From Williamsia sp. 1138 (lineage in GTDB: Bacteria; Actinomycetota; Actinomycetes; Mycobacteriales; Mycobacteriaceae), in contig NZ_MJEJ02000022.1 in the NCBI RefSeq assembly GCF_002095435.2, positions 1 through 54,071 of the forward strand: a stretch of 54,071 nt of DNA. The letters run 5' to 3'. This document shows, piece by piece, positions 1 to 54,071 of the stretch (within the stretch, counting starts at the first letter, position 1; each line of letters begins with the position of its first letter). A model generated the notes under the pieces. That model made no database searches. It had not been told where the DNA came from and saw nothing but the letters and a program-made list of their open reading frames with translations. Position numbers and translations under genes: made by a program.

Positions 1-1119
1 TTGATACATGCCCTTCCGGGAAGATGCCGCCGACTGTCCCTGTTGATTGCTTGGGTGGAAGGTGTTGTCTTATGCGGGTTCTCGATGTGGTGTCGGCTGT
101 GACTGAGCTGGTGGTCCCTGGTGATTGTGCGGAGCTGTTGGTGTTGGTGCGTGATCTGATCACGTTGCGTAATGCCACCGAGCATCAGGTGTCGGTGTGT
201 GCTGCGGTTCTCGATGAGTTGGGGGTGGCGCGGCAGGCGGGGTCTACGACGTCGAAGTTGTTGGAAGCCAATGGTGCTGCGCCGGCGTCGGCGCAGCGGT
301 GGGTGCGAATCGGTGCCGGTTTGGCGGGTTTGGATCGCACGGCCGGGTGGGCCCGTGATGGGTACCTGTCGTCCGAGCATGTTGATGCGGTGGTCAAGGG
401 TCTAGCCGGTATCGAGGGGCGCTCGGACGAGCCGGTCACCGACGCCGAGCGTTACGAATTTGAGGGGGAGCTGCTGAACGGGGCGGTGTCGGGGGCGCCG
501 CCGGCTGAGATCAGTAAGACTGCTCGAGGTCTGGGTAACGCACTGGCTGCAGATACCGGTGGGAAACCGCCCGCGGAGGACCCTTCCCTGAACAGTCTCG
601 ATTATGCGGTCGGTAGCGACGGGCGGTGCGTGGGGAAGTTCGATCTGGATGTGAAGATCGGGGAGAAGTTGTTTTCCGCCCTGGACTTCTGGTCGAAGCC
701 GCGTCCGGAGCCGGATGGTTCTCCGGATGCGCGGACGCCGACGCAGGCGCGGGCCGATGCGTTGCATCAGTTGCTCGACTGTGGCGGTGGTGGGCAGGGG
801 TTGATCTCGGCGCCGCGGACCGAGGTGAATGTGACGGTCCCGGCCGATCATCCTGATCAGGCGTCGTTGCGGTGGATGGGTCCGATCACCGAAGCCACCG
901 CAGCAGCGTTGGCGTGTGATTCGACTTTCACCTTCATCACCCTCGATGGGCAGCAGGTGCCGATTGATCTGAGCCCACCCAAGCGTTTGTTCACCGGGCC
1001 GGTCCGTAAAGCCATCATCATCCGCGACGAGTGCTGCATCAAGTGCGGGGCACCGGCGACGTGGACTGATGCCCATCACATCAAGCACTACATCGACGGC
1101 GGGGAAACAACCCTGGCCA
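1..1119. repeat. Left copy of 1119-bp terminal direct repeat
   Basis: Bases 1-1119 read the same as 52953-54071 (constant offset 52,952) in all the lines compared, with no difference noticed. The left edge is the window edge, so the true repeat may extend further left. It covers the leader and most of the DUF222/HNH gene. A prefix-suffix identity like this fits a multicopy 13E12-type repeat, a circular or tandem unit of 52,952 bp, or an assembly overlap. Confidence 0.95.
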
Positions 1120-1286
1120 ATGGATGTTTGTTGTGCCGGACCTGCCACGGCGCCGTCCACAACACCGGCTGGGACGTTGTGATGGGCTCCGATGGGCATC
1201 CATGGTTGATTCCGCCGCTCGAGATGGACCCACACCAGCGACCATTACCGGCCTATAACAGGCGAACCATGACCCTCGCCGCGTAA
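72..1286 (+). CDS. DUF222 domain HNH endonuclease (13E12 repeat family)
   Basis: The product of 404 residues has an N-terminal DUF222 helical region (about 1-290) and a C-terminal HNH nuclease domain (about 310-385). The zinc-type cysteine pairs CIKC and CRTC and the catalytic DAHH, N (in LANG) and H (in CHGAVH) positions are all present, so it should be an active metal-dependent DNase. The start at 72 is chosen because GGAAGG lies 9 bases upstream; an in-frame ATG at 24 has no such site. Family members occur in many copies in mycobacteria and gordoniae, and some M. tuberculosis 13E12 genes are LexA-regulated. The promoter of this copy is outside the window; the second copy shows a LexA box. 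A hairpin at 1400-1434 follows the gene. The biological target is not known. Confidence 0.93.
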   Translation: MRVLDVVSAVTELVVPGDCAELLVLVRDLITLRNATEHQVSVCAAVLDELGVARQAGSTTSKLLEANGAAPASAQRWVRIGAGLAGLDRTAGWARDGYLSSEHVDAVVKGLAGIEGRSDEPVTDAERYEFEGELLNGAVSGAPPAEISKTARGLGNALAADTGGKPPAEDPSLNSLDYAVGSDGRCVGKFDLDVKIGEKLFSALDFWSKPRPEPDGSPDARTPTQARADALHQLLDCGGGGQGLISAPRTEVNVTVPADHPDQASLRWMGPITEATAAALACDSTFTFITLDGQQVPIDLSPPKRLFTGPVRKAIIIRDECCIKCGAPATWTDAHHIKHYIDGGETTLANGCLLCRTCHGAVHNTGWDVVMGSDGHPWLIPPLEMDPHQRPLPAYNRRTMTLAA

Positions 1287-1399
1287 CACCCTGCTACTGA
1301 ACGATTCTGACTGACCCCTGGCATTTTCGACCAGCCGCACCTGACCGTGAGTCAGGACCGCGCACGCAATCTTGACAACTCCATAGTGTGAAAACGCAC

Positions 1400-1434
1400 G
1401 GTGTTGCCGCCCAGACGGGCTGGGCGGCAACACC
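1400..1434. terminator. Hairpin terminator between convergent genes
   Basis: A 15-bp perfect stem (GGTGTTGCCGCCCAG paired with its complement) closes a 5-base loop. It sits between the stop of the HNH gene and the stop of the TetR gene on the other strand and could serve both. There is no strong T-run on either side. Confidence 0.7.
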
Positions 1435-1443
1435 AGCGAGGCT

Positions 1444-2130
1444 TCAGTCCGTGTTCTTCGTGGCGGAAAGGCGCGCCTCGATACCTCCGACGAATACGTC
1501 GATCGACAGCTCCAGTTGGGCTCTGTCGTAGGTGTTTACCTTCTGTTCGGCGATCCTGGCGAGAGTGGGTATCTCAGGTTTGTGCTCAGACATGGCTTGC
1601 CGGAGCAACTCTGGCCGCGGGGCTGCTTCGGCCGCTGCGATCGCGACGACGTCCCTGGCATGGGAGAGGCAGATGTTCGTCAGTAGCACCAGACACCGAA
1701 GGGCGGTCTCGTCATCGGCGCCGGCGTCGATCAGCTTCTGGACGATGACCTCGGATGCCTCGAGCATGGTCGTGACGAACGGATTGCCGAGTTGGAGATG
1801 GTCGGCGAGCGGCCCGATGGCGATGACCGCGTCGGTGAAGCCGATCGCGTAGGTGCGGCAAGCCTCCCTCCACGGAATCTCTGCAGCTAACCGAACTGCA
1901 GAAAAGCTGTCCGCGAAGGCGTCCATGGCGACGAGTCCGAGTAAGGTCTCTCGGTCGCTGACGTGATGATTGACCGCCTTCCTGTCGACACCCAAAACTC
2001 CGGCAACGGCCTGCATGGTGACCGCACCAGGGTCGAGTGTCTTGGCGGCTGCGACGATCTGGTCCCTGTCGAGCCCCGCCCGGACTCCTCGTGCACGGCG
2101 AACGGATGCAGTGCGTTCACTGTGAGCCAC
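1444..2130 (-). CDS. TetR family transcriptional regulator
   Basis: This is a 228-residue repressor of the TetR family. The N-terminal helix-turn-helix (about residues 20-70) contains the recognition stretch MQAVAGVLGVDRKAVNHHVS. The rest is a helical ligand/dimer domain of the TetR_C type with no recognisable ligand signature. The GTG start at 2130 is supported by GAGGAGG 8 bases upstream. It is divergent from the DUF2236 gene, and a perfect 20-bp palindrome lies between them at 2196-2215, so it probably represses that gene and perhaps itself. The inducer cannot be inferred. Confidence 0.9.
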   Translation of the reverse strand: MAHSERTASVRRARGVRAGLDRDQIVAAAKTLDPGAVTMQAVAGVLGVDRKAVNHHVSDRETLLGLVAMDAFADSFSAVRLAAEIPWREACRTYAIGFTDAVIAIGPLADHLQLGNPFVTTMLEASEVIVQKLIDAGADDETALRCLVLLTNICLSHARDVVAIAAAEAAPRPELLRQAMSEHKPEIPTLARIAEQKVNTYDRAQLELSIDVFVGGIEARLSATKNTD

Positions 2131-2154
2131 GAGCCCTGCCTCCTCGGAATGGGG

Positions 2155-2184
2155 TTGACGACCTCCGAACGGCCAGCCTACAGT
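2155..2184 (+). promoter_or_regulatory. Promoter of the DUF2236 gene
   Basis: TTGACG at 2155-2160 and TACAGT at 2179-2184 are separated by 18 bases, a good match to a primary sigma-factor promoter. The predicted start of transcription is near 2191, immediately before the palindrome at 2196-2215. Confidence 0.6.
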
Positions 2185-2195
2185 CGCACAAGCAA

Positions 2196-2215
2196 CAGTT
2201 CCCGGCCGGGAACTG
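2196..2215. promoter_or_regulatory. Probable TetR operator, 20-bp perfect palindrome
   Basis: CAGTTCCCGG at 2196-2205 is followed directly by its exact reverse complement. It lies between the divergent TetR and DUF2236 genes, just after the predicted -10 box and 19 bases before the DUF2236 start. This is where a TetR dimer would block transcription. The assignment to this regulator is inferred from position. Confidence 0.75.
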
Positions 2216-2234
2216 GAAGCCGAGGGGGGTAGGC

Positions 2235-3335
2235 ATGCGACTTGTCGCCAACGGTCGAAGCGATGGGTCCGTGAACAGGGTCCTCACCAGTGAGCGCCTT
2301 CTCGGTACCGCAAGACGATGGAGGCGATTCGGAGAGCCGACACCAGCGGGTGAATCGCTGAATGCGGACGGGATGCCCGACTACGGAATCTTCGGTCCGG
2401 GAAGCGAGGTGTGGGAGGTACTGCTCCATCCCGCGACAATCGTGTTCCACAACTCGATCCAGGGTTTCATGCAGACGATCTACAAACCGATCGAAGCCGG
2501 CATTCGCGACTGCGATCCGATCTCGCGCAAGGGCCGCGACGGCACCTTGACGTTCTTCGATTCGTTCGAACGGCTCCAGCGCAATGCGGGCATGCACGCT
2601 CCGATGTGGCTCGGCGACACCGCCACCGCGGAAAAGATGGTGAAACACCTGCACAACATTCACCAGCGAGTGGCGGGCGACATCATTGACGTCGGCGAGC
2701 CGGAACTGGGTGGCTACGCCGCGACCGACACGCGCGAGGTGATGTGGGCGGCACTCACCGAGATGCATCCCATGCTGCGTGTATATGAGGCCTTTGCCTT
2801 CCGGGATGGGAAGCTGCCCCATCGACTTCCGGCCGCAGCCCGCGACCGATTCATGGGCGAGTCCGCGCGCTACGTACGTCTGCATGGTGTGCCCGAGGAC
2901 GAGATACCGACCACGATGGCTCAGCTCGCTCTGCTCTACGAGAAATACGATCATCTGTTTCGGCACAGCCCGACGATGAAACTCATTCCCGAGACCGGCG
3001 AGGACTTCGAAGAGGTCATGGGCAAGGCCATGATCAAGAATTTTCACTTCACGCAGGTGCGGGCAATACTTCCGTTGATGATTCAGGCCATCATGTTCAA
3101 TCTGCCCATCGCAGGTGCACTTTCAGGCAAAGCGCGCCGCGCGATGGGACTGAGTCCGGCGAAGGGTCGACTTGCGATCCTGTCGAGGATGGCTGTTCTA
3201 CCGATCGTCTGGCTCATGCAGCAGCCACCGATCGAACGCCGCTTCATGAGATTGATGTGGGGACCGGACGGAGTGGTGCTCATCGAATCGGCGCGCGTAC
3301 TGCACAAGCAGGCGCTCGCAGCTCAGTCCAGCTGA
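2235..3335 (+). CDS. DUF2236 (mpaB / rubber-oxygenase-like) family protein
   Basis: The 366-residue product resembles the DUF2236 family, which covers ER-bound oxygenase mpaB and the latex-clearing (Lcp) b-type haem oxygenases. Most bacterial members have no assigned reaction. Family-like features are the FGPGSEVW start of the core, the conserved histidines in LLHPATIVFH and in the MVKHLHNIHQ stretch, and a membrane-leaning C-terminal part (RAILPLMIQAIMFNLPIAG). The ATG at 2235 is chosen because GAGGGGGGT ends 4 bases before it. It is paired with a divergent TetR regulator, a common arrangement for this family. Its last 13 bases overlap the end of the convergent GGDEF/EAL gene. Substrate unknown. 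Confidence 0.8.
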   Translation: MRLVANGRSDGSVNRVLTSERLLGTARRWRRFGEPTPAGESLNADGMPDYGIFGPGSEVWEVLLHPATIVFHNSIQGFMQTIYKPIEAGIRDCDPISRKGRDGTLTFFDSFERLQRNAGMHAPMWLGDTATAEKMVKHLHNIHQRVAGDIIDVGEPELGGYAATDTREVMWAALTEMHPMLRVYEAFAFRDGKLPHRLPAAARDRFMGESARYVRLHGVPEDEIPTTMAQLALLYEKYDHLFRHSPTMKLIPETGEDFEEVMGKAMIKNFHFTQVRAILPLMIQAIMFNLPIAGALSGKARRAMGLSPAKGRLAILSRMAVLPIVWLMQQPPIERRFMRLMWGPDGVVLIESARVLHKQALAAQSS

Positions 3336-5521
3336 GCATGCAGCAATTCCGTTGTGTCGTCGCCTGATATCGGGCGTCCGAACAGATAGCCCTGCGCCAG
3401 TTGGCATCCGCAATTCCGAAGGGCCTCGAGCTGCTCCGAGGTCTCGACCCCTTCGGCGACCACAGTCACATCGAAGGCTTTCGCAAGCGAGACGATCGCG
3501 GAGATGATGGCCTCTCCGCGAGGGCTGGGCAACCTCGCGATGAACGACTGGTCGATCTTGAAACACTCGAACAGCGGGTAGCGATCGAGGTACGAGATGG
3601 AGCTGTGCCCGACCCCGATGTCATCGAGCAGGATCCCCACGCCCATCCGGTGGAGTTCGGTGAGAGTGTCGGCAACTCGTTCCGAGTCTTCGACCCAGAC
3701 GGTCTCGGTGATCTCCAGGCCCAGTGCCGTCGGGGGCAGGCCGGTCGCAGCCAGGACCAGGGCGACCTGGTCGGGTAGCTTCGCGTCGCGCAACTGCAGA
3801 GCACTGACGTTGACGCGAATGGCGATGTCGCTGGTCTGCCGCCACTCGGCGGCCTGCGCGCACGCCGTCCGCAGGGCCCACACACCTAGTTCGGTGGCCA
3901 GGCCGGTGCGTTCGGCGACAGCGACGAACTCGGTGGGACCGATCGGACCGAGCGTCGGGTGGTTCCACCGCGCCAGCGCCTCGATCGCAACGATCCGGTT
4001 GGCGTCGATGTCGACGATCGGCTGGTACGCCATGTACATCTGATCGCCGCGGATCAGCGCCTTTCGCAATGCAAGCGACAGAGTTCGGATGCGTTCGGCG
4101 TCATAGACATCGGCGTTGTCGAAGACCGCGTGCCCGCCGGTCCCGGTGCTCTTTGCGCGGTACATGGCCAGATCAGCCTGATGAATGAGGTCTCGTCTGG
4201 TCGACGACTCGTCGGACACTGCGATCCCGATGCTGGCGCTGCGTGGGGTAGGCGAGTTGTCGTCGACGACCGGCTGTCTGATCTCGTCGGTGATCGAGTG
4301 CGCGATCTCCTGAGCATGTGCCACGTCCCGGATGCCCTCGCAGATGATCAGGAACTCATCCCCGCCCAGGCGTGCGACCGTGTCCTGTGGCCGCGTCGCG
4401 GCATTGAGGCGACGGGCGAACTGCCGCAACGCGATGTCTCCGGTGTCGTGTCCGAGGCTGTCGTTGATGATCTTGAAGTCGTCGATGTCGAGGAGGAGTA
4501 CGGCGACGACCGTGCCGTTGAGCAGGGCACGTGCGAGGGCCTCATCGATGCACTCGTAGGCGACCTCGCGGTTGGGCAAACCGGTCAGCTGATCGCTCAT
4601 CCTGCGGTGCCGCAGACGCCGATCCAGTTCGATTCGCCGAATCGCCGTGGACAGGACTCCCGCCACCGTCTGGAGAAAGGCGACCTCCCGCGGGCCGTAC
4701 GAGCGGGGCCGGACGCTGTGAACGGACAACGCACCCCACGGTCCGGCGTTACCGGCGATGGGTACCGAGACCCCACTCCGCATGCCGGTGGTGGCCATCG
4801 CGTGGGTGTCGAACCGCAGCTCGCCTGCGATGTCGGTACACACCACCGGCGTGTTGTGCAGGATCGAATAGCCCATCAGAGAATGGTTCCCCGCGGGTAT
4901 GCGCCCCATTTTCCACGGGGTTCCGCTGAAGGCCTCGAGCACCAGGGTGGAGTCTTCCTCTGCGTCGACCCGAGTGATCGTAGACCGCTCGACGCCCATC
5001 ATGGTGGCGGCTGCGCCGGTCGCAATCGGGAGTAGTTGGGGAAGGTCGCCACTGATCGCGATCTTGCTGAGTTCGGCGACAGACTGTTGCTCCGCGGCGA
5101 ACTGGGCGGCGCTGGCAGCCGCATCGAGCAACTTGAGGTCTCGGTCGTAGCCGGCCCGGCGGTCACGGACGTACGAGGCGATCAGGCTCGGTCTGTCGCC
5201 GTCCCTGTCGACCACAAACGTGGAGATGGCGACGGGGATACCCTCTCCCGTGGCGAAGTTTCGCATCTCGCTGCGGCCCTGCCAGTGTCCGACCGTGCTC
5301 AGCCCGTGCTCCACCTCGCCTGCGACCTGCAAACCCTCCGGGGTGAAGAAGTCCTTGGTGGTGAGCGTGTCTTCCTCGGGCAATGCGGTCAGGCCCAGTA
5401 GCTCGAGACCGGCCGGGTTGAGATAACGGACCAAGCCCGAGAAATCAGACAATGCGACGAGATCGGGCGACCGCTCCAACAGCGCTTGCAAGATCGCCAA
5501 CTCTGCTTCGGGTCCGCGCAT
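3323..5521 (-). CDS. PAS-GAF-GGDEF-EAL cyclic-di-GMP signalling protein
   Basis: The 732-residue protein has a PAS-like sensor (about 10-100), a GAF-like sensor (about 145-290), a diguanylate cyclase domain and a c-di-GMP phosphodiesterase domain. GGDEF is intact at residues 386-390, and an RxxD inhibitory site (RPQD) lies exactly five residues before it. The EAL domain starts at residue 514 and keeps EAL, the ETVW glutamate, DDxGxG, KID, the AEGVE glutamate and QGYLFGRP, so both activities are possible. DDIGVGHSS departs from the common DDFGTGYSS form. No membrane segment is seen, so it is probably cytoplasmic. The start at 5521 has GGGAG 11 bases upstream; a GTG at 5623 would add 34 residues that do not look like a domain. 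It is divergent from a glycosyltransferase. Confidence 0.92.
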   Translation of the reverse strand: MRGPEAELAILQALLERSPDLVALSDFSGLVRYLNPAGLELLGLTALPEEDTLTTKDFFTPEGLQVAGEVEHGLSTVGHWQGRSEMRNFATGEGIPVAISTFVVDRDGDRPSLIASYVRDRRAGYDRDLKLLDAAASAAQFAAEQQSVAELSKIAISGDLPQLLPIATGAAATMMGVERSTITRVDAEEDSTLVLEAFSGTPWKMGRIPAGNHSLMGYSILHNTPVVCTDIAGELRFDTHAMATTGMRSGVSVPIAGNAGPWGALSVHSVRPRSYGPREVAFLQTVAGVLSTAIRRIELDRRLRHRRMSDQLTGLPNREVAYECIDEALARALLNGTVVAVLLLDIDDFKIINDSLGHDTGDIALRQFARRLNAATRPQDTVARLGGDEFLIICEGIRDVAHAQEIAHSITDEIRQPVVDDNSPTPRSASIGIAVSDESSTRRDLIHQADLAMYRAKSTGTGGHAVFDNADVYDAERIRTLSLALRKALIRGDQMYMAYQPIVDIDANRIVAIEALARWNHPTLGPIGPTEFVAVAERTGLATELGVWALRTACAQAAEWRQTSDIAIRVNVSALQLRDAKLPDQVALVLAATGLPPTALGLEITETVWVEDSERVADTLTELHRMGVGILLDDIGVGHSSISYLDRYPLFECFKIDQSFIARLPSPRGEAIISAIVSLAKAFDVTVVAEGVETSEQLEALRNCGCQLAQGYLFGRPISGDDTTELLHAQLD

Positions 5522-5752
5522 AGGTCGCCATTCTCCCAGAGCCGTGGTCGGCCGGGGCTTGGGCCGCAGGCTGCCTATGAATGTACTGCGGCCAGTCAGG
5601 CGGCGGATGTGATTGACCACCACGGCGGTGGTTGCGCGAGGTCCCTGCCGTCCACCGCGGCTGGGTGGGTGCCGGAGGAGTTTCGGACGGTGTTCATCGC
5701 GGGGCCACGTGGTGTTCGGTCAACGGGCCGGGGAGGAGTCGACACTTCGATC

Positions 5753-6856
5753 ATGCGGATAGTGCAGGTCGCCAATTTCTATGGGCCGCGTTCGGGAGGA
5801 CTCCGCACCGCGGTCGATGAATTGGGTAGCGGATACGTCCGGCGCGGTCACGACGTGACGTTGATCGTTCCGGGGCCGATCGCGGCACGCGAGCCACTCG
5901 TGTCAGGGGTGGTGCGGCTGACGGTGCCCGCTCCTGTGCTCCCGTTCACCGGGGGATATCGCGCTGCGCGCTTCTCGGCCGTCGCTGCCCAGGCAGCGTC
6001 GCTGAACCCCGACGTCATCGAAGTGTCCGACCGACTGACATTGCGTCGCATGGGCATCTGGGCGCGAGACCGGGGCATCGGCTGCGTGATGATCGCCCAT
6101 GAACGTCTCGACCGGCTGCTGGGTCAGGCACTTCCCCGGCCCGTGGCGCAAACCCTTGCCGACGTCGCCAATCGCGCCACCGCGCGTGACTACGACAAGA
6201 TTGTGTGCACCACCGCGTTCGCGGGCGAGGAGTTCGACCGTATCGGTGCGAGCAATCTGTGCAGGGTTCCACTGGGCGTCGACCTCGACGTGTTCCATCC
6301 GGGCCGCCACAGCTCAGCGATACGCGACCGGACCCGGCGAGGTGCCGATCATCTGCTGATCCACTGTGGACGGTTGTCCGTGGAGAAGCAGGTCCATCGG
6401 AGCCTTGATGCTGTTGAGATGCTGCAGGATTCGGGGGATTCGGTGCGGCTGCTGGTCGTCGGCGACGGGCCGTGCATGCGAAAGCTCCGCAAGCGGGCCG
6501 AAGGGTTACCCGTCGATTTCACTGGGTACCTCGGGAGCCGTTCCGAGGTCGCGGCGTTGATGGCCTCGGCCGACGTGGCATTGGCGCCGGGACCACACGA
6601 GACGTTCGGGCTGGCGGCGCTCGAAGCGCTCGCCGCAGGTACTCCGGTGGTGGTCTCGCAGACCTCAGCGCTGTCGGAGATCGTGACACCGGAGTCCGGT
6701 GCGCAGGCGCCGAACACGGCACACGACCTCGCCCAGGCGATCAGGGCCGTGCTGCAACTACCTGTGGCTCAACGACGGTTCAGTGCGCGAGAGCGTGCAG
6801 AACAGTTCAGTTGGCCGCACGCGGTCGACGGTATGCTGGCGGCGTTCGTCGGTTGA
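5753..6856 (+). CDS. GT4 family glycosyltransferase
   Basis: This 367-residue GT-B enzyme opens with MRIVQVANFYGPRSGG, the usual first strand and glycine-rich loop of GT4 enzymes. The donor half contains the EX7E-type motif (ETFGLAALE) and AGTPVVVSQTSALSE, typical of nucleotide-sugar-dependent retaining transferases related to PimB/MgtA-type mannosyltransferases. The acceptor and donor cannot be read from the sequence. The ATG at 5753 follows GGGAGGAG by about 14 bases; longer in-frame forms lack conserved sequence. It is convergent with nadE, with only 3 bases between stop codons. No signal peptide is seen, so it acts on the cytoplasmic side. Confidence 0.88.
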   Translation: MRIVQVANFYGPRSGGLRTAVDELGSGYVRRGHDVTLIVPGPIAAREPLVSGVVRLTVPAPVLPFTGGYRAARFSAVAAQAASLNPDVIEVSDRLTLRRMGIWARDRGIGCVMIAHERLDRLLGQALPRPVAQTLADVANRATARDYDKIVCTTAFAGEEFDRIGASNLCRVPLGVDLDVFHPGRHSSAIRDRTRRGADHLLIHCGRLSVEKQVHRSLDAVEMLQDSGDSVRLLVVGDGPCMRKLRKRAEGLPVDFTGYLGSRSEVAALMASADVALAPGPHETFGLAALEALAAGTPVVVSQTSALSEIVTPESGAQAPNTAHDLAQAIRAVLQLPVAQRRFSARERAEQFSWPHAVDGMLAAFVG

Positions 6857-6859
6857 CCG

Positions 6860-45100: not shown

Positions 45101-47758
45101 ATGGCCGACCAGTACACTGCTGCATTTCGTCTACGGACGTCCCGATCGGATTCTCCACCAGGTTTCGTCGAGCGTCAGCGATTGAACTCGATGTTTAACC
45201 GTGGCGCGCGCAAAGCCGTCACCATCGTCTGCGCCGGACCCGGTTACGGTAAGACCCTCGCGGTCTCGGCCTGGGTCGGGCGCGGTGATCCTCCCGGGGC
45301 CGTTGCCTGGCTGACCGCGGACACCAGATATGACGTGCAGGGCCTGTGGGCGGACTTGTTGGATGCCTTGCGGATTTCCGGGGTTGTGCCGCAATCGAGT
45401 GTGCTCGCAACCTTGACCCCGGGAGTGCAGTTCGGCGAACCCGAACTGGACCGGATCGTCGAAGGGTTGATGCATCTACCGACGCCGATCGTCGTGGTGC
45501 TGGACGACTTCCACCACATCACCGATCCCGCCGCGCTGGACAGCATCAATCGCGTCGCCGAGTACCGCATTCCGCAATTGCGCCTGGTGTTGGTCTCCCG
45601 CACCGAGCCCGACCTGCGGCTGTCCAGACTCCGCCTCGTCGATGATGTCGCCGACATCGACGGCAACGACCTGACGTATACGGCTGCGGAAACCCGCGAG
45701 GTGTGCGCCCGGAGTGGGGTGACGCTCGGCGACGGCACACTCACTGAACTCCACAGTCGTACCCAGGGTTGGCCGGCCGGACTTCGCCTGGCGATGATCA
45801 GCGTCGACGAGGCTGCCGGAGCGGTCCCGGTCCTAGAGCACTTCAGCGGCAACAATCGAAGGGTCGCCGAATACCTGCTGGAGGAGATACTCGACCGGCT
45901 GTCTCCGAGCGACCGCTTGTTCCTTCTCGCCACCAGTGTTGTCGATCAGATGACCGCAGAATTGGCGCGAGCTCTGTCCGGTCGCGTGGACAGCAAACAC
46001 GTACTCGAGGACCTGGTGGCACGTAACGCGCTGACGGTGCGACTGTCGGACCGCCCGCACTGGTTTCGTTATCACCCGCTACTCCGAGAGTTGTTGCAGG
46101 ACAGACTCTCTGCGGAGAATCCGGACAGTGTCGCGGAATTGAACCGCCGGGCCGCGGACTGGTACTTCGGTAGGAACGAGCCGATCGATGCGTTGCGCCA
46201 CTATGCGTACGCCCGTGATTGGGCAACTGTGGCAATGGTTCTCGGACAGGTCGCCCTTCCGCTGATCTTGACGCCGCAGGCCACCGCTCTGGTGTCGGCG
46301 TTGTCCACCGTGTACGACGACGTGGCCCGGTTGCCGACCGCCGAGACCTTGATCGTCGCGCTGGTGTGCGACTATCAGCGACACGACTTCGAGTCGATGC
46401 AACGAAATGCCGACGACGCTGCGTTGCTGCTGAGTGGGACAGACGATCCGTTGGCCGACGTGTACCGGATCATCATAGCCATCGCGCACACCGTTCATGC
46501 GAGGGCGACCTCGCCGTCACGGTTGGTGGCAACCGCGGATGGGTTGCTCGAACTACTCGATCGCGTTCCCCGGCGGGAGGTTCCGGCGTCCGCTGCCTAC
46601 ACCCTCGTCGCCATCAACAACCGCGCGACCGGACTCGTGCACGAAGGCCTCCTCGACCGGGCACAGATCAGTCTGTCTGCGGTGCGCACCCAGGGCGGGC
46701 ATCTCGGTATAGGTTTGACGGTGCTCTCGGCCGCGTCCTATCTGTCGCTCGTCGAGTTCCTGCTGGGTGATCTCGATCAGGCCGAGATCGAGTCGACGGC
46801 TTCGCTGGCGACGGCGGAGACGCGGGGATGGGCGCGTGAGCCCCAGTTGCTTGCCGCCTACGCTGCCGCGGCACTGGTTTACCTCGAACGAGCTGATTTC
46901 GAGAAAGCCGAGCGGTATATCGACACGGGCCTGGCGGCCAGTACTACGGGGTCGGACATCGGGTGCAGGCTGCTCCTGCACGTGGCGGCAGTCGGCGTCG
47001 CCGTTGCCCGTCGGGAGCTGTCGCCGGCACGGACGGCACTGCATCGTCTCGACCTGTTGGCGGCATCGGTTGTCCTGCCCGCCTTGTTGGTTGCGTGGTC
47101 GCGCGCTTGCCGCGCGGAGGTGGCGATGGTTGCGGGGGAACCCCAGGTTGCGCTCGAGGTGATCGGCGACCCCGGCGATGGTGTGGACTACGCGTCGAGC
47201 CTGATGCGCATCACCCGCGCCAAAGCGCTTCTCGAACTCGCCAGGCCCGCCGCTGCTCTCGAGGAGCTTCGTCCGGCAGACCGGTTCGCCGGGTTCAAGA
47301 CACTGGCCGCGGAGGGTGCGCTGCTGGAGGCGGCTGCGCATGGCCACCTTCGGCGCGACAACACGGCCGTCGAACGGGTCGGCGCCGCAGTGGCGTTGGC
47401 CGCGCCGGTCGGCTTGCGGCGACCGTTCCTGCTGGCGGACGCGCAGATACCGATTCAGCTGAACCGGTATATCCGCCTCAGCGGCGACCGCAGTTCATTC
47501 GTCACCGAACTCGCGGATACCTTCGGCGTCGTCACCGAACAGACGACGCCGCCCGCCACTGTCCTGCAAGACCTCACCGAACGCGAACTAGCAGTGCTGA
47601 AGTATTTGCCGACCATGCTGAAATCGTCCGAGATCGCCGCTGATCTGTTCGTGTCGGTCAACACCGTCAAGACTCACCAGCGCTCGATCTATCGAAAGCT
47701 GGGCGTGTCCAACCGCCGCGAGGCGGTCGAGTCGGCGCGCTATTGGGAGATGCTGTAG
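45101..47758 (+). CDS. LuxR family STAND ATPase regulator (LAL/MalT type)
   Basis: The 885-residue regulator has an ATPase part with Walker A in CAGPGYGKTLAVSAW (about 46-60) and a Walker B-like VVVVLDDFHHI, a long helical repeat region (about 350-800) resembling TPR-type sensor arms, and a C-terminal LuxR HTH (ELAVLKYLPTMLKSSEIAADLF then VNTVKTHQRSIYRKLGVSNR). Such MalT-like activators oligomerise on ligand binding. The ATG at 45101 follows AAAGAGGTGG. It ends 7 bases from the stop of the convergent DUF2252 gene. The target genes are unknown. Confidence 0.92.
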   Translation: MADQYTAAFRLRTSRSDSPPGFVERQRLNSMFNRGARKAVTIVCAGPGYGKTLAVSAWVGRGDPPGAVAWLTADTRYDVQGLWADLLDALRISGVVPQSSVLATLTPGVQFGEPELDRIVEGLMHLPTPIVVVLDDFHHITDPAALDSINRVAEYRIPQLRLVLVSRTEPDLRLSRLRLVDDVADIDGNDLTYTAAETREVCARSGVTLGDGTLTELHSRTQGWPAGLRLAMISVDEAAGAVPVLEHFSGNNRRVAEYLLEEILDRLSPSDRLFLLATSVVDQMTAELARALSGRVDSKHVLEDLVARNALTVRLSDRPHWFRYHPLLRELLQDRLSAENPDSVAELNRRAADWYFGRNEPIDALRHYAYARDWATVAMVLGQVALPLILTPQATALVSALSTVYDDVARLPTAETLIVALVCDYQRHDFESMQRNADDAALLLSGTDDPLADVYRIIIAIAHTVHARATSPSRLVATADGLLELLDRVPRREVPASAAYTLVAINNRATGLVHEGLLDRAQISLSAVRTQGGHLGIGLTVLSAASYLSLVEFLLGDLDQAEIESTASLATAETRGWAREPQLLAAYAAAALVYLERADFEKAERYIDTGLAASTTGSDIGCRLLLHVAAVGVAVARRELSPARTALHRLDLLAASVVLPALLVAWSRACRAEVAMVAGEPQVALEVIGDPGDGVDYASSLMRITRAKALLELARPAAALEELRPADRFAGFKTLAAEGALLEAAAHGHLRRDNTAVERVGAAVALAAPVGLRRPFLLADAQIPIQLNRYIRLSGDRSSFVTELADTFGVVTEQTTPPATVLQDLTERELAVLKYLPTMLKSSEIAADLFVSVNTVKTHQRSIYRKLGVSNRREAVESARYWEML

Positions 47759-47765
47759 AACGAGC

Positions 47766-49178
47766 TCAGGGGATGTCGGGCCAGCCTTGTTCTGATGGGA
47801 TATCGCCGTCGGCAACGGCTTTCGCCAACTGCGCATGGTCGGCGGCGTTCTGGTCGGCATAGGCGCTCGAGAAGTCGACGAGGGCGTCCTCCACCTTGTC
47901 GCTGTTCCCGAGATAGTCGGCGATCGCTGCAGAGTCACCACTTCGGGCATGCGCCCGTGCCAGCACATGTCCGCACGCAGCGGCGAACCGAGGTAGCACC
48001 GGAGCCACCCCTTCGCCTTTCGGGATCACCTTGCCGTCGCGGAATTGACGGACATAGAAGTCCAGATCCAGATCCAACTCCTGCCACTCGAACGACGTCC
48101 AGCCCACGAACATGTCGGTGGCGCTCTGGATGAGGTGCTGTCCGTGCACAACTCGGGCACCGTGGTTGTCGTATTTGCTCCTGCCGAGAAACTGTTCGTA
48201 CACAGAGGGTCCGGCTTGTTTGACCTGCAGGAACAGGGGGTCGCCTGTACGACGTTCCTCGAGCAACGTCAGGAATACCCTCATGCCGACACTGCCCACG
48301 CCGACGACCTGGCGTACGGCGTCCACTGCGTCGTACCGGCTGAGGAGATTCTCCAGGTGGTCGGGTACCGACTCGTGGTACTTCGAGAGGACGACACGCA
48401 AGATCTGTTCGGCGGCATCGCCGAGTCGGTGGGTCCGGTACGGCGGATCCTCGGTGATCTGTCGCTTTCCCTCGACAGTGGTGAGCAGCTTTTTCGACAC
48501 ACCCCGACTGGTCCGCTTCTTGGCGCGGCTCTCGATGAGGGCGTCCAGCTTCTCTTCGTTTTCTTTCTTGGCGTACTTCACCAGTTGCTCGATGTCGATC
48601 TGGTCGTACCAGACGTCGATCTGCGGCATCTCCGCATACGTTCTCATGTGCTTGCGGTAGTTGCGGTAACCCGCCCGAACCGCATCCTGCGCGGCCGATT
48701 CCGAGATCCCGTTGTCGCGAGCGAGCACGACCAAGCTCGCGAGGAAACGTTTGAGGTCCCATTCGAACGGGCCGGGCAAGGTTTCGTCGAAGTCGCGAAG
48801 GTCGAAGATGAGGTTGCGCTCGGGCGACGTCCACATCCCGTAGTTCAGTACGTGTGCGTCGCCGCACATCTGCACCATGATGCCGGTGTGCGGGGTGGAA
48901 GCCAGATCGGCAGCCATCACCGCGGCGGCGCCGCGGTAATAGGTCCAGGGGGAGTGACTCATCCGACCGTGGCGGATGGGCAACAGGTCGGGGGCGCGGA
49001 TGTCGCTCTGCGCGAGAATCGTCTGCAGTGCGTCGTGGCCACGTTTTTCTGGATTCCAACGTCCGAGCTCGCGGCGTGGGACCACTTTTCGTGACTGCCG
49101 ACCCGGGTCCGGGTGTTCGGGCAACGGTGCGTCGATGAACTCTTGGTCCTGCGTCGGCCGCGCGTCGAGATCGGTCAC
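47766..49178 (-). CDS. DUF2252 family protein
   Basis: The 470-residue protein matches the DUF2252 family, whose fold is related to aminoglycoside phosphotransferase-like kinases. Family landmarks are MSHSPWTYYRGAAAVMA, VQMCGDAHVLNYGMW, FDLRDFDETLPGPFEWDLKR and VVGVGSVGMRVFLTLLE. No reaction has been shown for it as far as I know. GTG at 49178 has AAAGGAG 5 bases upstream; earlier in-frame starts lack a site. It is convergent with the LuxR gene. Confidence 0.88.
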   Translation of the reverse strand: MTDLDARPTQDQEFIDAPLPEHPDPGRQSRKVVPRRELGRWNPEKRGHDALQTILAQSDIRAPDLLPIRHGRMSHSPWTYYRGAAAVMAADLASTPHTGIMVQMCGDAHVLNYGMWTSPERNLIFDLRDFDETLPGPFEWDLKRFLASLVVLARDNGISESAAQDAVRAGYRNYRKHMRTYAEMPQIDVWYDQIDIEQLVKYAKKENEEKLDALIESRAKKRTSRGVSKKLLTTVEGKRQITEDPPYRTHRLGDAAEQILRVVLSKYHESVPDHLENLLSRYDAVDAVRQVVGVGSVGMRVFLTLLEERRTGDPLFLQVKQAGPSVYEQFLGRSKYDNHGARVVHGQHLIQSATDMFVGWTSFEWQELDLDLDFYVRQFRDGKVIPKGEGVAPVLPRFAAACGHVLARAHARSGDSAAIADYLGNSDKVEDALVDFSSAYADQNAADHAQLAKAVADGDIPSEQGWPDIP

Positions 49179-49265
49179 CGGCACTCCTTTGTCGTGGTCC
49201 GCTCTAAGCATTCTCCTCGACGAGGTTCCGAGCTTCATCCGATCTGGGTGAACCGGGTGCGCTAT

Positions 49266-50165
49266 TTACGCCTGGTCGTTCGAGGCGGTGCGCTCGGTGG
49301 GCAGGACGTCGTGGCTCGCCGCCCAGGACGCCAGCAGCTTGAGCGCATCGGCGGTGGGTGTCCCGGCGGCTGCGGTGTAGATGTTGAGCTTGAGGCCTGG
49401 CTCGGAAGGCAACTCCATGGCTTCGAAGTCGAGGTCGAGTTGTCCGACCGCCGGGTGGTGCAGCCTCTTCCGGCCGCTGCGGTGGAACCGCACGTCCTGC
49501 GATGCCCAGCGTTGGCGAAACGCCTCGCTCTGGGTGGACAGTTCGCCGACCAGTTCGATGAGTGCCTTGTCGTGTGGATTGAGGCCCGCCTCGAGACGGA
49601 GCATCGCGGCGGCGTCGCGAGCGATCTGGTCGTAGTCGACGAAGAAGGCCTCAGCTTCTTCGGGGTGTAGGTAGACGAAGCGGGTGGTGTTCGCCGGACG
49701 GCGCGGATCGGCCAGGACGGGGGAGTACAGCGCGCGGGCGAGGTCGTTCATCGCGATGATGTCGTGCCGGCCGTTGCGGATCCAGGCAGGGGCGTCGGTG
49801 ATGGCGTCGAGGACCTGCTGGATCGCCGGGCGGACGGTGGACTGCGGTGCTCGCTTGCGCCGCCGCGCTCCGGTCTCGGACTGGCGGGCCAGGGTGAAGA
49901 GGTGATCGCGCTCGGCCTCGTCGAGTTTGAGCGCACCGGCGAGGGCGTCGAGCACGCTGTCGGACGCACCCGACAGGCTGCCTCGTTCCATTCGGATGTA
50001 GTAGTCGACGGAGACACCAGCCAGCATGGCGACCTCCTCCCGCCGCAGCCCCTTGACCCTGCGATTGCCGCCGTACGCAGGCAGACCCGATTCTTCGGGG
50101 GTGATGCGTGCCCGACGGGAGCTGAGGAACTCGCGGATCTCGGTGCGTAGGTCGGTCGTGCCCAT
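49266..50165 (-). CDS. XRE helix-turn-helix regulator with MmyB/MLTR ligand domain
   Basis: The 299-residue regulator has an N-terminal HTH_31-type domain (RRVKGLRREEVAMLAGVSVDYYIRMERG, about 33-62) and a C-terminal MLTR/MmyB-like ligand-binding domain (about 110-285, PAWIRNGRHDIIAMNDLARALYSPV). Related proteins act as repressors or activators of the oxidoreductase gene beside them. ATG at 50165 is divergent from the zinc alcohol dehydrogenase gene by 100 bases, where a 31-bp element shared with the aldo/keto reductase promoter lies. It probably controls both and itself. Confidence 0.88.
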   Translation of the reverse strand: MGTTDLRTEIREFLSSRRARITPEESGLPAYGGNRRVKGLRREEVAMLAGVSVDYYIRMERGSLSGASDSVLDALAGALKLDEAERDHLFTLARQSETGARRRKRAPQSTVRPAIQQVLDAITDAPAWIRNGRHDIIAMNDLARALYSPVLADPRRPANTTRFVYLHPEEAEAFFVDYDQIARDAAAMLRLEAGLNPHDKALIELVGELSTQSEAFRQRWASQDVRFHRSGRKRLHHPAVGQLDLDFEAMELPSEPGLKLNIYTAAAGTPTADALKLLASWAASHDVLPTERTASNDQA

Positions 50166-50204
50166 GGACCCACGGTAGGCCGCAGAATCGGCTCGGGGGA
50201 GGCA

Positions 50205-50235
50205 CTGGCAGTACCTGGACCGACAGTGACTCCCC
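50205..50235. promoter_or_regulatory. Shared 31-bp element, copy 1 (ADH promoter)
   Basis: This copy matches 51411-51441 at 24 of 31 positions without gaps; the common skeleton is CTGnCAGTACC, then GACCG, then GACTCCC. It lies 31 bases before the dehydrogenase start and about 40 bases upstream of the divergent regulator start. It is a candidate operator and/or promoter for the XRE regulator's regulon. Confidence 0.65.
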
Positions 50236-50265
50236 AGCCGTCCGGATCGGACGTCAACTGGACGT

Positions 50266-51315
50266 ATGCGAGCAACCTATATGTACGGCGCGGGCGATGT
50301 CCGCGTCATCGACGTCCCTGACCCATCCATCCAGCAGGCCACCGACGCAGTGGTCCGAGTGAACCGGGCCTGCGTGTGCGGCAGTGATCTACATCCGTAC
50401 CACTCGATGCCGTCCGACCCGGCGGGCGCGCCGATGGGCCACGAGTTCATCGGAGTCGTCGAAGCGGTCGGCGCCGACGTCACCACCCTCAGCGTGGGCG
50501 ACTTCGTGATTGCGCCGTTCGCGGTGTCGTGCGGCGTCTGCGAGTTCTGTCTGGCCGGCCTGCAGACCTCGTGCGTGCGCGGCGGGTTCTGGAGCGACGC
50601 TGCGCTCGGAACCGCCGGCGCTCAGGCCGAGGCGGTTCGAGTTCCACTGGCCGACGGCACGCTGGTCAAGGTCGACGGGGGTGAGGGCCTCGACGATGCC
50701 ATGCATCTGTCGCTGCTCACCCTGTCCGACGTCTACGGCACCGGCTGGCACGCCGCCGTCCGAGGGGGTGTCACCGCAGGCAGTACCGTCACCGTGATCG
50801 GCGACGGCGCCGTAGGCCTGCTCGCGGTGCTCTCGGCGAAACAGCGTGGAGCCGAGCGGATCATCTTGATGGGACGGCACGCCGCCCGTACCGACCTCGG
50901 CAGGGACTTCGGTGCCACCGACGTCGTCGCCGAACGCGGCGAAGAAGGCATTGCCAAGGTTCGCGAACTCACCGGTGGACATGGCAGCCAGATCGTCCTC
51001 GAAGCTGTGGGTCATCGTCCGGCGTATGACCAGGCGCTCGGCGTCATCCGGCCCGGTGGCGTGATCAGCCGGGTCGGCGTCCCGCAGTACGACGACGCAC
51101 CCGTCGGGTTCGGCAGCCTGTTCGGCCCGAACATCACCCTCACCGGCGGCCCCGCCCCCGTCCGTGCGTATATCGAGCAGCTGCTCCCGGCAGTGCTCGA
51201 CGGAACCGTGAACCCCGGGCGGGTCTTCGACCGCACCGTCGACCTCGAGGACACCCCGAAGGGCTACGCCACCATGGACTCCCGCGAGACGCTCAAGGTC
51301 GCTGTCCGGCCATGA
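50266..51315 (+). CDS. Zinc-dependent alcohol dehydrogenase (MDR family)
   Basis: The 349-residue enzyme has the catalytic-zinc residues in CVCGSD (Cys38 type) and GHEF (His-Glu), the structural-zinc cysteines CGVCEFCLAGLQTSC, and the cofactor fold VTVIGDGAVGLLAVLSAK. It should oxidise an alcohol or reduce an aldehyde with NAD(P). ATG at 50266 follows a weak GGA site. It is divergent from the XRE regulator and is followed by the aldo/keto reductase and cupin genes on the same strand. Confidence 0.93.
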   Translation: MRATYMYGAGDVRVIDVPDPSIQQATDAVVRVNRACVCGSDLHPYHSMPSDPAGAPMGHEFIGVVEAVGADVTTLSVGDFVIAPFAVSCGVCEFCLAGLQTSCVRGGFWSDAALGTAGAQAEAVRVPLADGTLVKVDGGEGLDDAMHLSLLTLSDVYGTGWHAAVRGGVTAGSTVTVIGDGAVGLLAVLSAKQRGAERIILMGRHAARTDLGRDFGATDVVAERGEEGIAKVRELTGGHGSQIVLEAVGHRPAYDQALGVIRPGGVISRVGVPQYDDAPVGFGSLFGPNITLTGGPAPVRAYIEQLLPAVLDGTVNPGRVFDRTVDLEDTPKGYATMDSRETLKVAVRP

Positions 51316-51476
51316 GCATCGGCCCCGCCAGCAGCATCATGCATGCGCTGGCATTGATCGTGATCCTCGGCGTGATAGTTCCAGCCGGAAGCAGCAGTTC
51401 GAAGGGGGTTCTGCCAGTACCCCGACCGTCAAGGACTCCCACGCGGCCGATGTCGCGCCTAGCGTGGAAGTCATGA
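51312..51476 (+). CDS. Possible small ORF after the alcohol dehydrogenase
   Basis: A 54-codon frame starts with ATG overlapping the dehydrogenase stop (ATGA at 51312-51315). The first half (SIMHALALIVILGVIVP) could be one membrane span; the second half is basic and proline-rich. The same stretch contains the shared promoter element of the next gene, so the frame may be accidental. No family recognised. Confidence 0.2.
   Translation: MSIGPASSIMHALALIVILGVIVPAGSSSSKGVLPVPRPSRTPTRPMSRLAWKS
51411..51441. promoter_or_regulatory. Shared 31-bp element, copy 2 (AKR promoter)
   Basis: This is the second copy of the element at 50205-50235, with 24 of 31 positions the same. It ends 32 bases before the aldo/keto reductase start, almost the same spacing as in copy 1. 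Equal position before two oxidoreductase genes supports common control. Confidence 0.65.
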
Positions 51477-52357
51477 GTATTCCGAATCTGACTTTGAACA
51501 ACGGCGTCGAGATCCCGAGCCTGGGCTTCGGCGTCTTCCAGACCCCACCCGCCGAGACCGACGCCGCGGTGACGACCGCGCTGGAGACGGGCTATCGCCA
51601 CATCGACACCGCTGCGGCGTACCTCAACGAGCGAGGTGTCGGCGACGCGATCGCGCGTTCCGGTGTCGACCGTTCCGACATCTTCATCGAGACGAAGATC
51701 TGGATCAACGACTTCGGCTACGACGCCACAGTGCACGCGTTCGACAAGGCTGCGGGCAAGCTCGGCGTCGAGCAAATCGACCTGTTGATCCTGCATCAGG
51801 CGTTACCCGGCGAGTTCGACCTCACCATCGCCGCATACAAGGCGCTCGAAACGCTGCTCGCAGAGGGCAAGGTCCGGGCCATCGGGGTCAGCAACTTCAT
51901 GCCCGACCACCTCGATCGCCTACTGGAAGCGACTTCTGTTGTGCCGGCGATCAATCAGATCGAAGTTCATCCCTACTTCCGCCAGTCGGAGCTGCTCGAG
52001 GTCAACGAGAAGCACGGCATCCTGTCGCAGGCCTGGGCGCCGATCGGCGGCATCACGTTCTACCGGGATGGCAAACATGGCTCCACACTGGAAGATCCGG
52101 TCATCAAGGAGATCGCTGCGGCACACGGTAAGTCGCCCGCCCAGGCGATGCTGCGCTGGCATCTGCAGCAGGGCCGGCAGGTGATACCGAAGTCCGTCAC
52201 CCCGTCGCGAATCGCGGAGAATTTCGACGTGTTCGACTTCGAACTCACCGCTGACCAGCTCGCTGCGATCGACGCGCTCGACACCGGTGTCCGTGGAGGA
52301 CCTGAGCCCGAGGCAGTCACGCGTGAGAAGTTCGGCCTCGACATCCCGGAGGCGTGA
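51473..52357 (+). CDS. Aldo/keto reductase
   Basis: The 294-residue NADPH-dependent reductase has the catalytic tetrad in the usual places: Asp and Tyr in HIDTAAAYLNE, Lys in ETKIWI, His in LLILHQALPG. Phosphate-binding IPKSVTPSRIAENFDVF near the end supports NADP use. Substrate open; related enzymes reduce 2,5-diketo-D-gluconate and other carbonyls. ATG at 51473 is preferred; GTG 51464 adds three residues. The cupin start follows its stop by 2 bases, so the two are coupled. Confidence 0.93.
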   Translation: MSIPNLTLNNGVEIPSLGFGVFQTPPAETDAAVTTALETGYRHIDTAAAYLNERGVGDAIARSGVDRSDIFIETKIWINDFGYDATVHAFDKAAGKLGVEQIDLLILHQALPGEFDLTIAAYKALETLLAEGKVRAIGVSNFMPDHLDRLLEATSVVPAINQIEVHPYFRQSELLEVNEKHGILSQAWAPIGGITFYRDGKHGSTLEDPVIKEIAAAHGKSPAQAMLRWHLQQGRQVIPKSVTPSRIAENFDVFDFELTADQLAAIDALDTGVRGGPEPEAVTREKFGLDIPEA

Positions 52358-52359
52358 GC

Positions 52360-52767
52360 ATGCAGGTCGACCCCGTAGTACCGACAACCAAGAACCCGCC
52401 TGAGCAGTTCACCGGGGACGTGTGGCTGGACCCGATCGCCTTCCCCCGTGAAGAAGGCCAGCAGATGATCGTCGCGAAGGTGCGGTTCGCGCCGGGAGCG
52501 CGGACGGCCTGGCACTCGCACGCGCGAGGGCAGACTCTGCACGTGACCCAGGGTGTCGCATGGGTGCAGTCGCGTGGGGGAGTGAAGGTCGAGGCCTCCG
52601 CGGGCCAGACCATTTACTGCCCGCCTGGCGAAGAACATTGGCACGGTGCAACATCCGAGAACTTCATGGAGCATCTCGCGATGCTGGACAATGCCGACGA
52701 CCCGGCGACCACCACCACATGGCTCGAGCACGTGACCGATGAGGAGTACCTCAGCAGTAGTCACTGA
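52360..52767 (+). CDS. Cupin domain protein
   Basis: The 135-residue protein is a single cupin barrel. The first metal motif is GARTAWHSHARGQTLHVTQG (two His, then Gln where Glu is common, and a late His), and the second is PPGEEHWHGA. It resembles the small actinobacterial cupins related to hydroxynitrile lyases and carbonyl-handling enzymes. ATG at 52360 follows GGAGG by 7 bases inside the reductase end. A strong terminator follows after 24 bases, ending the operon. Confidence 0.87.
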   Translation: MQVDPVVPTTKNPPEQFTGDVWLDPIAFPREEGQQMIVAKVRFAPGARTAWHSHARGQTLHVTQGVAWVQSRGGVKVEASAGQTIYCPPGEEHWHGATSENFMEHLAMLDNADDPATTTTWLEHVTDEEYLSSSH

Positions 52768-52791
52768 CGGTCGCCGCGAGTGACTTTCTTC

Positions 52792-52826
52792 AAGACGCCC
52801 CACCTGTTCAGGTGGGGCGTCTTTTT
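52792..52826 (+). terminator. Rho-independent terminator after the cupin gene
   Basis: A perfect 15-bp stem (AAGACGCCCCACCTG with its complement) around a TT centre is followed by a T-run (GTCTTTTTGTG). It is the clearest intrinsic terminator in the window and separates the oxidoreductase operon from the HNH gene. Confidence 0.93.
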
Positions 52827-52893
52827 GTGTGAAGGTTCTTTCTTTGACTACCGAAAGGTGATGGGAACCAGTGAGATTGGAGGTTGGAACCGC

Positions 52894-52923
52894 TTGCGAA
52901 CATGTGTTCGAGTGCGGTAGGTT
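52894..52923 (+). promoter_or_regulatory. Promoter of the second HNH gene
   Basis: TTGCGA at 52894-52899 and TAGGTT at 52918-52923 are 18 bases apart. The SOS box at 52896-52911 overlaps the -35 element and spacer, so LexA would block it. Confidence 0.5.
52896..52911. promoter_or_regulatory. SOS (LexA) box
   Basis: GCGAACATGTGTTCGA matches the mycobacterial LexA box TCGAAC-N4-GTTCGA at 11 of 12 fixed positions, and the inner CGAAC-N4-GTTCG is perfectly symmetrical. It lies 128 bases before the start of the HNH gene at 53024. Confidence 0.85.
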
Positions 52924-52952
52924 GTAGGTAGTCGGCCCAATGATGACGAATC

Positions 52953-54071
52953 TTGATACATGCCCTTCCGGGAAGATGCCGCCGACTGTCCCTGTTGATT
53001 GCTTGGGTGGAAGGTGTTGTCTTATGCGGGTTCTCGATGTGGTGTCGGCTGTGACTGAGCTGGTGGTCCCTGGTGATTGTGCGGAGCTGTTGGTGTTGGT
53101 GCGTGATCTGATCACGTTGCGTAATGCCACCGAGCATCAGGTGTCGGTGTGTGCTGCGGTTCTCGATGAGTTGGGGGTGGCGCGGCAGGCGGGGTCTACG
53201 ACGTCGAAGTTGTTGGAAGCCAATGGTGCTGCGCCGGCGTCGGCGCAGCGGTGGGTGCGAATCGGTGCCGGTTTGGCGGGTTTGGATCGCACGGCCGGGT
53301 GGGCCCGTGATGGGTACCTGTCGTCCGAGCATGTTGATGCGGTGGTCAAGGGTCTAGCCGGTATCGAGGGGCGCTCGGACGAGCCGGTCACCGACGCCGA
53401 GCGTTACGAATTTGAGGGGGAGCTGCTGAACGGGGCGGTGTCGGGGGCGCCGCCGGCTGAGATCAGTAAGACTGCTCGAGGTCTGGGTAACGCACTGGCT
53501 GCAGATACCGGTGGGAAACCGCCCGCGGAGGACCCTTCCCTGAACAGTCTCGATTATGCGGTCGGTAGCGACGGGCGGTGCGTGGGGAAGTTCGATCTGG
53601 ATGTGAAGATCGGGGAGAAGTTGTTTTCCGCCCTGGACTTCTGGTCGAAGCCGCGTCCGGAGCCGGATGGTTCTCCGGATGCGCGGACGCCGACGCAGGC
53701 GCGGGCCGATGCGTTGCATCAGTTGCTCGACTGTGGCGGTGGTGGGCAGGGGTTGATCTCGGCGCCGCGGACCGAGGTGAATGTGACGGTCCCGGCCGAT
53801 CATCCTGATCAGGCGTCGTTGCGGTGGATGGGTCCGATCACCGAAGCCACCGCAGCAGCGTTGGCGTGTGATTCGACTTTCACCTTCATCACCCTCGATG
53901 GGCAGCAGGTGCCGATTGATCTGAGCCCACCCAAGCGTTTGTTCACCGGGCCGGTCCGTAAAGCCATCATCATCCGCGACGAGTGCTGCATCAAGTGCGG
54001 GGCACCGGCGACGTGGACTGATGCCCATCACATCAAGCACTACATCGACGGCGGGGAAACAACCCTGGCCA
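52953..54071. repeat. Right copy of 1119-bp terminal direct repeat
   Basis: This is the same as 1-1119 in all lines compared. Its left edge is not a natural boundary that can be tested here, because the other copy begins at the window start. The unique sequence just left of it (52827-52952) holds the SOS box and promoter. Confidence 0.95.
53024..54071 (+). CDS. DUF222 domain HNH endonuclease, second copy, cut by window end
   Basis: The 5' part (349 full codons) is the same as the gene at 72-1286. The start at 53024 follows GGAAGG by 9 bases. The visible part includes DUF222, the first CIKC cysteine pair and the DAHH pair; the remaining N-H part of the nuclease domain lies beyond the window. 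The gene is not shown to be broken. Its upstream region, unlike that of the first copy, is in the window and carries the LexA box, so it is likely induced by DNA damage. Confidence 0.93.
   Translation, partial: MRVLDVVSAVTELVVPGDCAELLVLVRDLITLRNATEHQVSVCAAVLDELGVARQAGSTTSKLLEANGAAPASAQRWVRIGAGLAGLDRTAGWARDGYLSSEHVDAVVKGLAGIEGRSDEPVTDAERYEFEGELLNGAVSGAPPAEISKTARGLGNALAADTGGKPPAEDPSLNSLDYAVGSDGRCVGKFDLDVKIGEKLFSALDFWSKPRPEPDGSPDARTPTQARADALHQLLDCGGGGQGLISAPRTEVNVTVPADHPDQASLRWMGPITEATAAALACDSTFTFITLDGQQVPIDLSPPKRLFTGPVRKAIIIRDECCIKCGAPATWTDAHHIKHYIDGGETTLA

Follow-up and report, generated by a model that had tools for sequence, protein, structure and literature searches.

Contig C43 of Williamsia sp. 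1138 (NZ_MJEJ02000022.1) raises the question of why a stretch of 54,071 bp should begin and end with the same 1119 bases. The stretch analysed here, called the window, is the complete contig, one of the 54 that make up the 6.08-Mb assembly of the source genome. The repeated sequence covers part of a gene of the 13E12 family, which encodes a DUF222 domain followed by an HNH nuclease domain. In our best explanation, to which we give a probability of about 0.82, the equal ends result from an assembly break at a repeat present twice, the window is a chromosomal block lying between the two copies, and the cores of these copies were equalised by gene conversion.

A repeat core at four contig ends

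The identity of the two ends, reported in the initial annotation, is exact: bases 1-1119 equal bases 52953-54071, and among all prefix lengths from 20 to 4999 that were compared with the suffix, 1119 was the sole matching length. The pair is also the only same-strand repeat of the window by exact 25-mers, and chance is excluded as its origin. Counting the copies of the 1119-bp sequence, as the annotation had proposed, yielded two more exact occurrences in the source genome, both terminal. One makes up the last bases of C37 (233835-234953 of 234953) and the other an end of C31 (127332-128450 of 128450, minus strand). The core has two distinct left flanks (the ends of C37 and C43) and two distinct right flanks (the start of C43, and C31), which is the pattern left by an assembler when a repeat is present twice. 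Homology continues past the core on both sides. Leftward, 59 of the first 60 bases are shared, then 36 of 60, then the background level is reached. Rightward, about 314 bp are shared at 94.6% (58, 58, 56, 52 and 58 per block of 60, followed by a drop). The full repeat unit is therefore about 1494 bp long (60 + 1119 + 315). The features of the window are the following:

1..1119, plus strand: repeat core of copy A at the left terminus of the contig, identical to 52953-54071 and to the terminal bases of C37 and C31
72..1286, plus strand: DUF222-HNH (13E12-family) gene of 404 aa, from Pfam matches and an ATG conserved among relatives
1120..1434, plus strand: tail of the copy A unit, homologous but not identical to the copy B tail on C31 (94.6% over 314 bp; alignments with relatives)
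about 1399-1434, plus strand: terminator-like hairpin closing the copy A tail, with self-complementary ends, a putative terminator
1120..52952, no strand: chromosomal block with an EAL/GGDEF protein, NAD synthase, kdp genes, transporters and oxidoreductases (Pfam on 30 open reading frames; collinear with relatives)
52893..52952, plus strand: upstream part of the copy B unit, with 59 of 60 bases as in the end of the unique part of C37
52897..52910, plus strand: SOS-box-like palindrome CGAACATGTGTTCG upstream of copy B, the sole CGAACN4GTTCG of the window and a putative LexA site
52953..54071, plus strand: repeat core of copy B at the right terminus of the contig, an exact match to 1..1119; its gene begins at 53024 and runs on into C31

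The SOS-box-like palindrome of copy A sits on C37, outside the window.

The neighbours of the block are the same in related species. W. soli C17 (G005) carries homologues of the C37 end, of most of C43 and of the C31 flank, in that order, on its contig C22, and W. limnetica DSM 45521 (G002) has them likewise ordered on its contig C6. W. sp. 1135 (G007) joins the homologues of C43 and C31 on C104, and has the homologue of C37 at the end of C49. Since two of these relatives share the order C37-C43-C31 on one contig and the third its C43-C31 part, the block is chromosomal. The order C37, copy A, C43 block, copy B, C31 is well supported by this synteny and would place the two copies in direct orientation about 53 kb apart. 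Four contigs would then end in the core because short-read assembly, presumably the source of these data, was unable to cross it. At the junction that holds copy A in the source genome, contigs C49 and C104 of W. sp. 1135 (end of L082, start of L083) share 1664 terminal bases, which are insertion-sequence-like by eye; this is a contig break of the same kind.

The two left and two right flanks also permit another resolution, in which C43 is a circular molecule of 52,952 bp (a plasmid or an excised circle) with one copy of the repeat, and C37 is joined directly to C31 in the chromosome via another copy. Yet in related species the same neighbours flank the block, on a single contig in two of them, the kdpB region was found in all nine Williamsia genomes, and a search with the repeat at megablast sensitivity matched no plasmid record. 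A plasmid or circular element would be expected to carry its own replication or partition genes and to be separate from the chromosome, whereas the block is collinear with chromosomal contigs of relatives. Pfam families were sought at E ≤ 1e-10 in 30 open reading frames of the window, a part of the total, with weaker matches not showing at this threshold. Twenty-five had a family and five had none. NAD synthase, KdpA, KdpC and KdpD were among them, together with a P-type ATPase at the place of KdpB, and none of the 30 matched a replication, partition or integrase family. We rejected a circular or plasmid C43 on synteny and scanned gene content, and regard it as highly improbable. The initial annotation had offered three options, of which two, a 13E12-type repeat flanking the block and a contig ended in a repeat, hold together. 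The third, a tandem or circular unit of 52,952 bp, does not agree with the core being carried by four contig ends rather than two, nor with the constant neighbours of the block. Its argument that the content is chromosomal is borne out as far as the scan reached. The window is thus strongly argued not to be a mobile or circular unit.

Recombination between the two copies could possibly lead to loss or amplification of the block. In Mycobacterium avium, two large sequence polymorphisms are each reported with a flanking REP13E12 element (PMC2323391), which fits the initial suggestion that such repeats can border variable blocks. Five Williamsia genomes of greater distance were also examined for loss of the block, but their markers were far apart or on other contigs and gave no information on it. 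The block itself contains a variable locus: window positions 28118-38839 (about 10.7 kb, with a GAF protein, a sulfate permease, a DAGK-like protein and an MFS transporter) are unmatched at the corresponding position of W. soli, W. sp. 1135 and W. limnetica, the last of which has other DNA of about 10 kb there.

The DUF222-HNH gene and its palindrome

Each copy forms a unit of about 1.49 kb made of an SOS-box-like promoter region, a 13E12-family DUF222-HNH gene and a terminator-like hairpin. The gene product, in its 420-aa form, matches the Pfam families DUF222 (PF02720, E = 3.1e-13) and HNH (PF01844, E = 5e-8), both above the curated cut-offs. The gene has the traits by which the 13E12/DUF222-HNH repeat family is recognised: a DUF222 domain followed by an HNH domain, an SOS-box-like palindrome at the gene start, and many dispersed copies. 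PF02720 had 31 matches in the source genome and 20-29 in each of the eight other Williamsia genomes searched, counts that list certain genes twice and in which two copies account for the four contig-end rows. An in-frame ATG at position 24 would give the 420-aa form, and the start at 72 (404 aa) was picked from relatives, one of which (L010) has a stop codon within the part upstream of the conserved ATG. The nearest named relatives of the gene are in W. soli (96%) and W. sp. 1135 (93%). No transposase family was matched, DUF222 and HNH being the only Pfam families at E ≤ 0.001. Visual inspection of the C37/C43 junction in four genomes showed neither terminal inverted repeats nor a target-site duplication, for which no dedicated test was run. 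Against solved structures the HNH part gave three weak matches, two to IscB entries (E = 0.0053 and 0.13) and one to an entry named CasD (E = 0.92).

The palindrome CGAACN4GTTCG, which we take to resemble the mycobacterial SOS box, stands at the gene start in 18 of the 23 relative loci L009-L031 (16 within 131 bp upstream and two overlapping the first matched bases). The loci without it at the gene start are L017 (truncated), L019, L021, L029 (box about 300 bp upstream) and L030; L032 starts inside the gene and lies outside this count. The same motif was found in 15 of the 26 genus loci L040-L065, a set that partly overlaps the first. Just four of the 30 DUF222 loci of the source genome have it, and it is therefore a feature of this subfamily and not of DUF222 genes at large. 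By analogy with mycobacteria, the palindrome may be a LexA site. The 13E12-family HNH genes of M. tuberculosis are named among proposed LexA targets (PMC4181829), and five putative HNH endonucleases are described as induced by mitomycin C in a RecA-dependent way (PMC8151990). One record among the relative loci, L011 (NZ_JNYV01000004.1), is titled Kitasatospora arboriphila NRRL B-24581, has 728022 bp, the same as contig C4 of the Williamsia genome G006, and may be misnamed or contaminated.

Identical cores between diverged edges

Copies A and B show no difference in the 1119 bases of the core, whereas BLAST shows differences in 17 of the 314 alignment columns of their right tails (15 mismatches and four gap columns in 316 by global alignment). 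The coding part of the tail differs at six of 167 positions, and the left 60 bp at one. An indel in the tail has the copy A form in the W. soli copy at site B (the C43/C31 junction) and the copy B form in the W. sp. 1135 copy at that site, so that the tail differences are not sequencing noise. A comparison of the source core with the W. soli copy at site B gives a divergence of 4.9% (55 of 1117 sites). The probability of seeing no difference in 1119 bases would be about 2e-18 at the rate of the coding tail (6/167), and about 6e-16 at the rate of the left 60 bp and coding tail together, figures that are guides only because the core was chosen as the longest identical stretch. An identical core inside diverged edges points to gene conversion. 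The copies would be old enough for their edges to have diverged, and homologous repair of one copy from the other would later have equalised the 1119-bp cores.

This kind of conversion is already known from M. tuberculosis, where 87 gene conversion events are reported in the REP13E12 regions of long-read genomes (PMC13061034), regions said in that paper to be without defined function. The Williamsia case would be a new example, extending 13E12-family gene conversion to this genus. It is like the mycobacterial REP13E12/13E12 elements in the kind of gene, the dispersed copies and the conversion between copies (PMC13061034), and in that such genes are proposed LexA targets (PMC4181829). It is unlike them in that the host is Williamsia and the 1119-bp core is identical in the assembly.

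No conversion would be needed if copy A had arisen when the whole unit was duplicated or transposed into the C37/C43 junction (site A). W. soli shows no trace of the repeat unit at this junction, and the ends of the unit are fairly sharp, near the SOS-like box and the hairpin. But a recent duplicate should be evenly identical, and here the right tail is about 5% off, and the 60-110 bp upstream more so; the repeat gene, moreover, has no transposase family match. Remnants also stand at site A in W. limnetica (SOS-like box, gene end and hairpin) and in W. sp. 1135 (hairpin only), and therefore suggest that a copy was present at this site before these species split. Site B has a full copy in W. 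soli and W. sp. 1135, and none in W. limnetica. The W. limnetica remnant is 89.8% like the C3 copy of its own genome and 80-83% like the tails of the source genome, W. soli and W. sp. 1135. Because it is closest to that C3 copy, it may be a separate arrival, which would favour a duplication and weaken the ancestral occupation of site A that our explanation draws on. On balance we find a duplication without conversion rather unlikely. On C37, an alpha/beta-hydrolase gene (L033:8660-9628) adjoins copy A and is absent from this junction in the three nearest relatives. The source core is 95.1% identical to the W. soli copy (L009:4953-6069), compared with about 86-93% for the longer block matches around it, and this likeness above the level of the block may hint at exchange between species.

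We examined exchange between copies in a relative, G008, which has a contig of 5.25 Mb and from which twenty stretches were taken. Its four copies of the subfamily differ pairwise by 7.5-9.8%. They have 70 sites that split them two against two, of three conflicting types (33, 22 and 15 sites), and these cluster in blocks, with the same type shared by 59 of 69 neighbours against a shuffled mean of 24.7; none of 10000 shuffles was as high. The longest identical run was unusual in two of the six pairs (0 of 2000 shuffles). Judged by these site patterns, the four copies are a recombination mosaic, so that exchange between copies is real in the genus.

The source genome has three more DUF222 cores that are identical and exactly terminal. 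The 725-bp core lies at ends of C34, C39, C38 and C6, with extra homology on both sides. The 698-bp core lies on C20, C26 and the start of C37; a fourth end was not found, and one right flank was. The 1220-bp core lies at the end of C38 and on C46, C44 and C45, with about 180 bp of extra homology to the right. At least 15 of the 108 contig ends are inside DUF222 genes, for 0.7 expected if there were 27 copies of 1500 bp; this count drew on 30 of the 31 PF02720 matches, the remaining one being without a locus. DUF222 genes thus often break the assembly of this genome. REP13E12/HNH/DUF222 sequences are listed among the repetitive sequences in mycobacterial reads (PMC10589994).

These cores bear on the possibility that assembly produced most of the exact identity, the two copies having scattered differences and a single consensus having been written into both. 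In each of the four DUF222 cores, identity spans exactly the terminal stretch, and the genome with the 5.25-Mb contig shows no identity longer than 166 bp. If this were the case, the contig break at a repeat would stand, but the evidence for recent conversion in the source genome would fall. Merging still requires long segments that are truly identical, which is unexpected at the divergence of the tails, and exchange between copies is seen as the mosaic of G008 and reported in M. tuberculosis (PMC13061034). We consider an artefact of this extent somewhat unlikely; the length of exact identity in the source genome may be partly overstated by assembly.

Several other points weigh against conversion between two chromosomal copies. 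Collapse of assembly bubbles could inflate the apparent identity of the core. The order of the contigs in the source genome rests on synteny with relatives. The longest exact match between the G008 copies is 166 bp, with no identity on the scale of a kilobase, and the longest runs of the other four pairs were reached by 75, 218, 46 and 17 of 2000 shuffles. A second subfamily in G008 gave a weaker block signal (36 of 70, with 43 of 10000 shuffles as high), and one of the four copies occupies the very start of its contig. The other cores in the source genome have uneven flanks: on the left, the further homology of the 698-bp core extends for just 51 bp, and that of the 1220-bp core drops within 60 bp.

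A possible role of the nuclease and a dispersed 110-bp repeat

If the cores were equalised by conversion, the HNH nuclease may have taken part in starting it. A bolder proposal, which we hold to be very unlikely, is that the DUF222-HNH proteins, induced by the SOS response once DNA is damaged, cleave the gene copies that encode them, or sites inside these copies. Repair templated by a sister copy would then maintain the uniformity of the family in a self-converting, homing-like manner. By analogy with homing endonuclease genes, a nuclease gene within the sequence that is copied between sites would act similarly; unlike in those genes, no intron, intein or cleaved empty allele is shown here. 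The HNH nuclease MSMEG_1275 of M. smegmatis, from a related genus, is reported to cleave the DNA of its host and, when overexpressed, to be growth-inhibitory (PMC9416677); the main text of that paper does not mention DUF222. A prophage attachment site is described inside the REP13E12 repeat in mycobacteria (PMC2323391, PMC13061034). A literature search for DUF222 in Williamsia found no such title in the part of the matches covered, and one for DUF222 with gene conversion, paralogs and related terms found no paper. With 20-31 DUF222 matches per genome, this environmental genus would be convenient for the study of a nuclease family with an SOS-box-like site, the function of which PMC13061034 describes as undefined.

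Some DUF222 copies have lost their HNH segment to a sequence of about 110 bp, which replaces it in W. soli (C20 and C22), W. limnetica (C3 and C11) and the source genome (C27, near 27220-27326). This repeat has inverted arms (L018:5982-6100, L012:5901-6018, L150, L151 and L173). It is dispersed in eight of the nine Williamsia genomes, also outside DUF222 genes, with 5-19 matches per genome including partial ones, and none in G001. By eye, its right junctions are alike and its left ones differ. In three loci compared with Rfam the repeat itself was unmatched, the sole hit being a tRNA elsewhere in L012, and the DNA folds of two copies, on both strands, were not clearly better than those of shuffles (z from -0.5 to -1.9). 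In a fold of the alignment, 11 of the 28 pairs had changes on both sides, and the covariation term was small (-0.97 kcal/mol). The genes of W. soli C20 (407 aa) and W. limnetica C3 (370 aa) stay in frame across the repeat, keep DUF222 and have no HNH match. If the homing-like proposal were true, the repeat would mark the members of the family in which the nuclease was switched off or exchanged.

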